From contig JAAXWG010000001.1 of assembly GCA_013350285.1 (NCBI GenBank), forward strand, positions 62,001-126,000: a stretch of DNA of 64,000 bases, in the 5' to 3' direction. Source of the stretch: Candidatus Altimarinota bacterium (lineage in GTDB: Bacteria > Patescibacteriota > Gracilibacteria > BD1-5 > UBA6164). Made by a program: the position numbers and the translations under genes. The notes below the pieces were generated by a model that saw only the letters and a list, made by a program, of their open reading frames with translations, did not search any database and was not told the DNA's origin. Positions within the stretch are counted from its first letter, which is position 1; each line of letters opens with the position of its first letter. This document shows positions 55,459 to 58,552 of the stretch, piece by piece.

Positions 55459-56568
55459 TTATTGCATAGCTTCCATTATAACTTCTTTATTTACAGAAGT
55501 CACCCATTCTCATCAAAAATCAGACATTCCTCAGATATGTTTTGGTAGTGTAAATCTTATTTCTCACCTAATATTTTTCTTATCTCATATCATTATTTGA
55601 ATTAATTCTTCAATATTTTGTCATTCTGGTATAGTAGTAGGAAGTCATAATTTCTTTAGTAATTTTTCCTGATTATCTAAATCACAATTAGTAAATCCGG
55701 TTTTTAGTAAAGTAGCTACTCTTCCTGCAACTTGCATTCAGATTGCAACACAATATCAGTGAGGAAGAGTATAATTTGATGCCGACTCAACGGCATGTCA
55801 TACGGTATGTCAATAATTTAAAGTTTTTCTTCTTCATTGTTCTTCAGGATCTTGCATAACAACATTTCATTTTATTTTACAGTTTTTTTGAGCAATATAT
55901 GTTTCTCTTTCATTATTTAAATTCCTTGTTGCTATATCTGAAACATTATCAACCAACCAATCAAAAAAGTCTTTATCTCCTAATACTCAATGTTTTACTG
56001 TTTCCGCCATACCATTTCTATAGTGTTCATCAGTTAAAGTATTTAGCCATCAAACATCAACTATAACAGCATTTGGTTGTTTAAATGCTCATATTGCATT
56101 TTTTAAATTTCAAACATCAATTCCAACTTTTCATCAGATAGAAGAATCAGCCTGAGATAAAACAGTTGTAGGTATTTGTATTAATGGAACTCACCTATTA
56201 TGTGTATCAGCAACATATCAAGCCATATCTCATACAACTCATCATCAAAGAGCAATGACTAAACTATCTCTTCAATATCTTTTTTCAAGTAATCAATCTT
56301 GAAGAAAATTATAAGTATCACGATTTTTTGATGGTTCTCCAGCAGAAAATACAAATATTTGATTATTTTGTAATCAAAGTCATTCGATTAATGCTCAAGT
56401 TATTTTTAATTTTTTTACATTACTATCTGTAATTAGAGCTATTCTCCTTTTTGAAAATCATAATATATCAATAATTTTTTTAACATGTTGTCAATTTGCC
56501 TCTCAGTATTTAATAGGGTAAGAAAAATTTTCTCATGGAATAGTAATAATTTTTTGATTAGGATTCAT
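55459..56568 (-). CDS. aroB: 3-dehydroquinate synthase
   Basis: Catalyses the second shikimate-pathway step, DAHP to 3-dehydroquinate, using NAD and a divalent metal. The 369-residue product has FSAGEPSKNRDTYNFL, VIALGGGVVGDMAGYVA, PLIQIPTTVLSQADSSIGGK, GMAETVKHGVLGD, the metal-binding RRKTLNYGHTVGHAVE and the late HGYCVAIGMQ. All active-site Lys, Glu and His residues of these motifs are present. About 34 of its 41 or so glycines are TGA, including all three of the GGG run, among the highest use in the window. It shares a divergent control region with proS. aroA and aroC are 50 kb away. Confidence 0.95.
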
Positions 56569-56626: not shown

Positions 56627-56655
56627 TACTTTTTATAAAAAACAAAATTCTTAAT

Positions 56656-56683
56656 TTGCAGTTTCTAAAAAAAAGAATATAGT
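56656..56683 (+). promoter_or_regulatory. Candidate promoter of the proS leader (TTGCAG-16-TATAGT)
   Basis: TTGCAG at 56656-56661 and TATAGT at 56678-56683 have the 16-base spacing found at the trpS, dnaK and aroB promoters. Transcription would begin near 56690, about 25 bases before the leader peptide and about 195 bases before proS. Confidence 0.55.
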
Positions 56684-56713: not shown

Positions 56714-56770
56714 ATGCTAAAAGAAATAAAAAAATTCCCCCCTCAAAGCTTTTTATTTCTCAAGTCTTAA
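56714..56770 (+). CDS. Proline-containing leader peptide of proS (18 residues)
   Basis: The short frame from ATG 56714 to TAA 56768-56770 reads MLKEIKKFPPQSFLFLKS. It carries two adjacent proline codons, CCC-CCT, in a six-C run that is conspicuous in a genome this AT-rich. It lies directly upstream of a terminator hairpin and the prolyl-tRNA synthetase gene. This is the layout of ribosome-mediated transcription attenuation, where a ribosome stalled for lack of Pro-tRNA keeps the terminator from forming. That reading is inference; peptide expression is not shown by sequence alone. Confidence 0.6.
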   Translation: MLKEIKKFPPQSFLFLKS

Positions 56771-56795
56771 AAAAAGAAGAGTTTTTTGTATAATC

Positions 56796-56844
56796 AAAAT
56801 CTTTAATTTCTTTTTACTTGAGAGAAGAAATTAAAGATTTTTTT
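56796..56844 (+). terminator. Attenuator hairpin upstream of proS
   Basis: The arms AAAATCTTTAATTTCTT (56796-56812) and 56825-56841 pair perfectly over 17 bp. The loop is 12 bases and a T-run follows. No gene ends upstream on this strand, so the hairpin lies inside the proS leader. The loop holds ACTTGAGA (56816-56823), complementary to TCTCAAGT (56758-56765) in the last codons of the leader peptide. That pairing would compete with the hairpin. Confidence 0.75.
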
Positions 56845-56884: not shown

Positions 56885-58552
56885 ATGATACAACTTTCTA
56901 AATTTCCTTTTAAAACAATGAAATCTACTCCAAATGGAAGTGATAATATTTCCACTGGACTTCTTCTCCAATCTGGAATGATACGACAAGTTATGGCTTG
57001 AGTGTATACTTATACCACCCTTTGACTTCAAGTGCTAAAAAATATAGAAAATATAGTCAGGGAAGAAATGAATAATTATGATTGTTTTGAAACTCTTATG
57101 CCTGCTCTTTCTCCTCGTGATGCTTGGGAAAAAACTTGAAGATGGGATTCAATAGATGTATTTTTTCATATTCCTGTAACAAATGATAAAGAATATTGAC
57201 TCAATTCAACTCATGAAGAAATTATTACTCCTTTGTTATGAGAATTTATTCAATCCTATAAAGATTTACCTGTCTGTGCTTATCAGATACAAAATAAATT
57301 TAGAAATGAAAAAAGAGCAAAATCTTGACTTCTAAGAGGAAGAGAATTTATTATGAAAGATGCTTATAGTTTTCATAGTTCTGATGAAGAATTTAAAGAA
57401 TATTATGAAGGAATGAAAAAAGTATATTTAAAAATTTTTGAAAGACTTTGACTTGGAAATGATATTTATATAGCTCAAGCTGATGGAGGAACTTTTACTG
57501 ATAAATATTCTCATGAATTTCAAGTAAAACTTGAAATAGGAGAAGATCTTATATTTCTTGATCCTCTTTCAAAAGAATGTTTTAATAAAGAAGTTACTCC
57601 CAGTATGATTTCCACTCCAAATAAAAGTGATGCAATACTTCTTGAAAGAGAGGATATCTATGCTCCTTGAGTTATAGGAGTAGAAGCACTTACCAAAACT
57701 CTTGGAGTTCCTGCTCATAAGGCTACAAAAACAATGATGTTTGAAACAAATGATGGTAAATTTATCGTTGCTTCTGTAAGAGGAGATTATGATATAAATA
57801 CCTTAAAACTCCAAAAAATTATTGGATGTAAATGACTCTCTCTTGCACAAGAAGAAAAAATAAAACAAATGACAGGAGCAGAAGTAGGATATGCTGGTAT
57901 TTATAATCTTCCAGCTTCATGAATTGAGCTTTATCTTGATGATTCTCTTGTATGACTTACAAATTTTGAAACAGGAACAAATAAAACATGATATCATAGT
58001 AAAAATGTAAATTTTTGAAAAGATATTCTAGAACCTAAAAAATTTTATGATTTCAAAGAAGCAAAAATTTGAGATAAAAACCCAAATACTTGAGAAATTT
58101 ATGAGGTTTTTAAGTGATGTGAAGTAGGAAATATTTTTCCTCTTGAAACAAAATTTTCTCTTGCTCTCGGAGTAAAATATCTTGATGAAAATAATCAAGA
58201 AAAAATTCCTCTTATGGGATGTTATGGAATAGGAATTTCAAGACTTATGGGAGTTATTGCTGAATATTATATGGATAAAAATGGTATTGCTTGGCCAGAA
58301 AATATTGCTCCTGCTTATTATTATATCATTGTTCTTTGAGAAGAGAATTTACAAAGAGCTTCTTCATATGCAAAAAATCTTGAAAAAGAAGGAAAAAAAG
58401 TAATTTTTGACGATAGGATGGGGAAAAAAATTTGATTTGGTCAAAAAATGGGAGATGCAGAACTTCTTGGAATAAAAAATATTGTCATATTTTCAGACAA
58501 AACAAAAGATACAGAAAAATGATATGAGACAAAGATAAGAGGAGAGAAATAA
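56885..58552 (+). CDS. proS: Prolyl-tRNA synthetase
   Basis: A class IIa synthetase that charges tRNA-Pro. The 555-residue product opens [20 protein letters not shown]. It has motif 2 in [20 protein letters not shown] (the F-R-x-E and G-x-x-R-x-R-E-F elements), then [23 protein letters not shown], and motif 3 [16 protein letters not shown]. The STHEE motif is also present. Length (about 555) fits the bacterial type with an editing-domain insert. The 5' leader of about 195 bases holds a Pro-containing mini-ORF and a terminator hairpin. Control by Pro-tRNA supply is the obvious hypothesis. Confidence 0.96.

Follow-up and report, generated by a model that had tools for sequence, protein, structure and literature searches.

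A predicted proline-codon attenuator ahead of the prolyl-tRNA synthetase gene in a bacterium that reads TGA as glycine

Control of amino-acid genes by transcription attenuation is textbook knowledge in Proteobacteria and is also known in Actinobacteria. Leader-peptide attenuators described in Proteobacteria, Actinobacteria and Bacillus include those of trp, his, leu and pheST, of trpS and leuS in Streptomyces, and of the hisS paralogues in Bacillus (PMC1262725, PMC2965389); the main text of neither paper mentions proline, prolyl or proS. Leader ORFs with proline codons, MgtP included, precede mgtCBR and mgtA of Salmonella, where a low level of charged tRNA-Pro has been shown experimentally to increase downstream transcription (PMC3641672).

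The leader described here precedes proS in a window of 64,000 nucleotides, by which we mean the whole stretch of DNA that was analysed (Table 1). Like the classic attenuators (trp, his, leu, pheST and others), it combines a short ORF carrying cognate codons with a terminator before the first gene and a mutually exclusive antiterminator, the choice between the two being set, as predicted here, by ribosome position. Unlike them, it would sense proline, its targets are proS or, in relatives, proB, proC or proA, and its host reads TGA as Gly. It shares with the MgtP and mgtA leaders the proline codons in a short leader ORF, but those leaders control Mg2+ transport and virulence genes rather than proline supply or charging, and comparison by eye revealed no sequence relation to the window leader. 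The T-box of Firmicutes likewise places a synthetase gene under a leader terminator tied to the charging of its tRNA, but it binds tRNA directly, and none was detected in the window leader. A literature search that covered few subscription journals returned no attenuator reported to act on proS or on the proline pathway, and none from this lineage. The mechanism is known in kind; its targets, the use of proline for these targets and the lineage appear to be new.

From sequence, computed folding and comparison with related genomes we consider it highly likely that transcription of proS is set by a ribosome-mediated attenuator whose signal is charged tRNA-Pro. Translated with its 19 in-frame TGA codons as Gly, the downstream gene matches the profiles of a bacterial-type ProRS with an editing domain. 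The survey of proS in the order found the editing insertion present in some genomes and absent in others inside one family. Another observation concerns the altered code: ARAGORN reports a tRNA-SeC with anticodon UCA (L191, G000:C5:45287-45362), which in a TGA=Gly genome is more likely a tRNA-Gly that reads TGA. The leader lies between proS and the divergent aroB (55459-56568, minus strand). Since no plus-strand gene ends at the hairpin either, the original prediction was right to hold that it serves as the end of no other gene.

Table 1. Positions of the leader elements and of proS in the window.
Feature	Position	Strand	Remarks
Promoter-like pair TTTGCA - 17 - TATAGT	56655..56683	+	9/12 matches, weak; expected start ~56690
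Leader mini-ORF MLKEIKKFPPQSFLFLKS	56714..56770	+	ATG 56714, TAA 56768-56770, 18 codons
Hairpin 1:2 around the Pro codons	56722..56760 (56722-56732 with 56750-56760)	+	P 0.97, full-length naked RNA
Adjacent Pro codons CCC CCT, proposed stall site	56738..56743	+	22/28 leaders have CCC as their first Pro codon
Region 2, antiterminator 5' strand	56758..56781 (56758-56765, 56771-56778)	+	spans the leader stop codon
Possible internal promoter TTAAAA - 16 - TATAAT	56767..56794	+	10/12 matches; between mini-ORF and hairpin
Terminator hairpin 3:4	56796..56844	+	stem 56796-56841, 20 bp, -18.5 kcal/mol; T run 56838-56844
Region 3, terminator upper 5' arm and loop	56808..56823	+	antiterminator partner of region 2
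proS, prolyl-tRNA synthetase	56885..58552	+	TIGR00409 449.7 bits (above cut-off), PF00587, PF04073

The 18-codon mini-ORF with its adjacent CCC CCT is present as originally claimed, and these two are its only Pro codons. Every one of the 28 leaders collected from the window and its relatives (see below) encodes proline. Pro codons make up 63 of 518 leader codons, compared with 555 of 18,328 codons in the window genes, an enrichment that arises partly by construction because Pro codons were the criterion by which leaders were sought. The choice among Pro codons is no artefact of that search: CCC accounts for 33 of the 63 in the leaders and for 33 of 555 (6%) in the window genes, a background taken from the window genome only. 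Among 35 tRNA matches in G000 one tRNA-Pro was found, with anticodon UGG, so that, given a complete assembly, CCC has to be decoded by wobble.

The terminator hairpin is also real, with a run of seven T at its 3' end, although its stem has 20 pairs and not the 17 first proposed. The predicted 8-base complementarity was reproduced, TCTCAAGT at 56758-56765 matching ACTTGAGA at 56816-56823, and a second block that had escaped the earlier note (56771-56778 with 56808-56815) adds eight pairs. The competing helix spans the terminator loop and the upper part of the terminator 5' arm.

Folding was computed on RNA lengthened stepwise, with ribosome positions masked according to assumed footprints. When a ribosome was placed at the Pro-Pro pair (56723-56754 masked), the antiterminator formed with P 0.99-1.00 at RNA ends 56824-56832; when it was placed at the stop codon (56753-56783 masked), P was 0.00 at all RNA ends. 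With these footprints, region 2 is masked at the stop codon and released at the Pro codons, which agrees with the earlier proposal that a stalled ribosome would sit just upstream of the competing pairing. Without a ribosome on the leader, the only state in which hairpin 1:2 forms, the antiterminator reached P ~0.6 at RNA ends 56824-56828 and dropped once the 3' arm emerged. From RNA end 56840 onward the terminator prevailed (P >= 0.92) whatever the state of the ribosome. Because the terminator is the more stable fold regardless of state once its hairpin is complete, the switch can only be a kinetic one. Such dependence on timing is usual in attenuation control.

That the mini-ORF is translated, that ribosomes stall on it and that transcription responds is inferred from this arrangement. 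With ample prolyl-tRNA, the ribosome would pass CCC CCT, reach the stop codon and cover region 2, so that the terminator would form ahead of proS. With prolyl-tRNA scarce, it would halt at CCC CCT, where its footprint would open hairpin 1:2 and leave region 2 free; region 2 could then bind region 3 while the 3' arm of the terminator has yet to be synthesised, and RNA polymerase would continue into proS. The window mini-ORF contains no TGA, and the switch is therefore testable in E. coli.

Taken alone, the window leader provides modest evidence, which becomes strong once the comparison with other genomes is added. Its 2:3 pairing is better than that of about 97.6% of region 2 shuffles (p = 0.024), and the fold of the whole leader has z = -2.9. 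The window holds 29 terminator-like hairpins on both strands, and only the one in the proS leader follows a mini-ORF whose Pro codons lie close together. So modest a departure from the shuffles would suit an ordinary terminator-like hairpin that happens to follow a random short ORF in an AT-rich spacer, but 26 other genomes carry the same architecture ahead of proline genes, and it is missing at hisS, at pheS and outside the order. This reading by chance is largely refuted by the genome comparison, and we give it almost no weight.

The comparison covered the proS upstream regions of the family and the order, then proB loci and further stretches. It bore out the expectation that relatives would keep a proline mini-ORF and a hairpin: 28 leaders were found in 27 genomes of the order (22 of family f1, five of family f2) before proS or proline-biosynthesis genes, with covariation in one genus. 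They occur in 11 of 20 genera in the window's family and in one genus of a second family. An intrinsic terminator lies between the mini-ORF and the first gene in all 28, and the competing helix is present in most of them, not in all. At the proS loci, with proB and proC loci covered in part, no leader was found in g3, g4, g10, g14 and g18-g20, among others. A single motif match in G049 (L117) was discarded as probable chance.

The peptides take several forms. Form (a), MNTKQNWHLQPLNPS and similar, occurs in g13 (seven genomes) and g2 (two); form (b), ..FLHPVDPKN and ..YLLPVFP, in g5 and g15; form (c), ..AYLLPVPLPTLGR, in g26 of family f2 (five genomes); form (d), ..FTSIFPPFFIKSPMIG and similar, upstream of proB operons or proS in g8, g9 and g11 and in the tandem leaders of g17 (G016); form (e), ..LPCP..KMVF, before proB or proC-proA-proB in g6; and form (f), MILAPVHSCV, in g12. 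The window peptide (..KFPPQSFLFLKS) is closest by eye to the form (d) leaders. The tandem arrangement in G016 (L212, G016:C123) consists of two Pro mini-ORFs, each with its own terminator, before a proB-like gene; the competing helix of the second (L212b) is not significant. CTGCAWCCCGTNNACCC resembles a conserved RNA motif but was rejected as one, since it encodes LQPVNP/LHPVDP and occurs in only part of the family.

These peptides bear on what the ribosome would respond to. The adjacent Pro codons of the window leader and of the IIPPYF-type leaders of proB operons, together with the presence of an EF-P gene, would be compatible with a signal that reports EF-P activity, or slow formation of the Pro-Pro bond, in place of tRNA-Pro charging, the hairpin switch being unchanged. 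However, in the proS leaders of relatives the Pro codons mostly stand singly or apart (LQP, LHPVDP, LLPVPLP), and at such codons EF-P is expected to matter little; moreover, the controlled genes serve proline supply and charging. We regard an EF-P signal as unlikely and retain the charging of tRNA-Pro as by far the more probable one.

Conservation of the 2:3 pairing was assessed by comparing duplex energies with those of 1000 dinucleotide shuffles in 26 leaders, L017 being too short and L228 having been found later. The pairing had p <= 0.024 in 19 of the 26; six leaders gave p 0.055-0.13 (L018, L025, L124, L209, L210, L212a) and L212b gave 0.58. The combined Fisher p of ~5e-27 for the 26 is a guide only, because the rows are related to one another, and so not independent, and were partly hand-picked by eye for likeness. 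In 18 of the 26, region 2 lies over the stop codon of the mini-ORF; in four (L009, L027, L029, L129) it touches the first base of that codon, and in four (L010, L196, L212a, L212b) it stops 1-13 nt short of it. It starts 12-23 nt past the first Pro codon, 12 being the lower bound set in the script. In g13, the 2:3 helix shows two-sided compensatory changes in 4 of 10 pairs, and its covariation score of 0.42 was matched by 1 of 500 shuffles, slid helices scoring at most 0.23; the test sequences were trimmed by hand around the helix and leave out two g13 genomes whose helices are shifted or bulged, choices that favour the result. The window's own genus is represented by one genome. The elements, the mutually exclusive helices, their geometry, their conservation and their gene context are all observed in the sequences and the computations.

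The genes behind the leaders (proS, proB, proC and proA) all make or charge the amino acid that would be sensed, as is expected of an attenuator. The leader is followed by proB-proC-proS in G025, by proB-proC in G007, by proB-proS in G010 and G046, by proC-proA-proB in G031 and by proB in G060. In G008 (L211, G008:C72) a proB-like gene comes first and a type I proS follows about 1.2 kb past the terminator; the synthetase fragment matches proS_fam_I with 243 bits. There, the type I (archaeal/eukaryotic-like) ProRS replaces the usual bacterial type. The leaders of g6, among the nearest relatives, stand before proB or proC-proA-proB and not before proS. At 207 bits, the ProC of G025 exceeds the NCBIfam cut-off. 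Three proB-like proteins that were tested score 82.6-157.9 bits against TIGR01027, below its cut-off of 186, and are therefore best named glutamate-5-kinase-like; proA in G031 and G000 was recognised by visual inspection of the sequence. No such leader was found at the proC-proA-proB cluster that G000 carries elsewhere (C4).

The promoter-like pair proposed upstream of the mini-ORF is present, though weak. Relatives supply a stronger signal: 19 of 28 leaders have an exact TTGACA ahead of their mini-ORF, compared with 2% of control stretches; the window leader has none. In 12 leaders it starts 32-35 bases ahead of the ATG, a distance that would probably place the transcription start at or next to the start codon. 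The site between the mini-ORF and the hairpin would, if active, bypass the attenuator. It matches a promoter better than the upstream pair does (Table 1) and could be what drives proS, with the mini-ORF untranslated and the hairpin either incidental or the end of a short RNA. But shuffled regions contain 3.7 comparable promoter-like sites each, such internal sites being expected by chance in an AT-rich stretch, and the relatives retain not only TTGACA ahead of the mini-ORF but also the mini-ORF, the terminator and the competing helix. Transcription of proS from this internal site is, in our judgement, very unlikely.

A position of the start at or near the ATG, which is probable for several leaders, also leaves no space for an aptamer, and so argues against a terminator governed by a T-box or by a metabolite-binding leader RNA. 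T-boxes control most synthetase genes of Firmicutes (PMC1262725), and some leaders of g13 and g2 carry UGGNACC-like letters, but the UGG letters are missing in f2, g5 and the window, and Rfam covariance models gave no match to a T-box or relevant riboswitch in a search extended to a lax threshold. Control of this kind is extremely improbable, and attenuation by the translating ribosome remains the preferred account.

Within the family, no leader with cognate codons was found at 30 hisS or 30 pheS loci, and a general scheme for all synthetases is unsupported by these 60 loci. As a separate observation, a terminator-like hairpin without a His-codon mini-ORF (L239, -12.4 kcal/mol) lies about 60 bases ahead of hisS in G000. 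Outside the order, nothing comparable preceded any of 52 proS loci, which speaks against a class-wide distribution; the matches at L332, L335 and L346, among these loci, were of the chance type.

The odds appear even that the leaders constitute a proline regulon of one TGA=Gly order, in which attenuators would stand at proS, proB-proS, proB-proC-proS or proC-proA-proB according to genome. The peptides would be of several dissimilar kinds, and about a dozen genomes would translate theirs from a leaderless message, its start codon lying at the transcription start. If the attenuation itself is real, small-genome uncultured bacteria with an altered code have retained codon-level feedback on proline supply and charging.

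In g26 and part of the g13 genomes, the attenuator and proS are separated by a reading frame of about 80 residues (..SLQ..GRWKIQNKKKHGGYL..; L009, L027, L129, L154, L010, L012, L124), for which neither Pfam nor NCBIfam gave a match. In G046 (L029) a proB-like gene occupies the position of this ORF.
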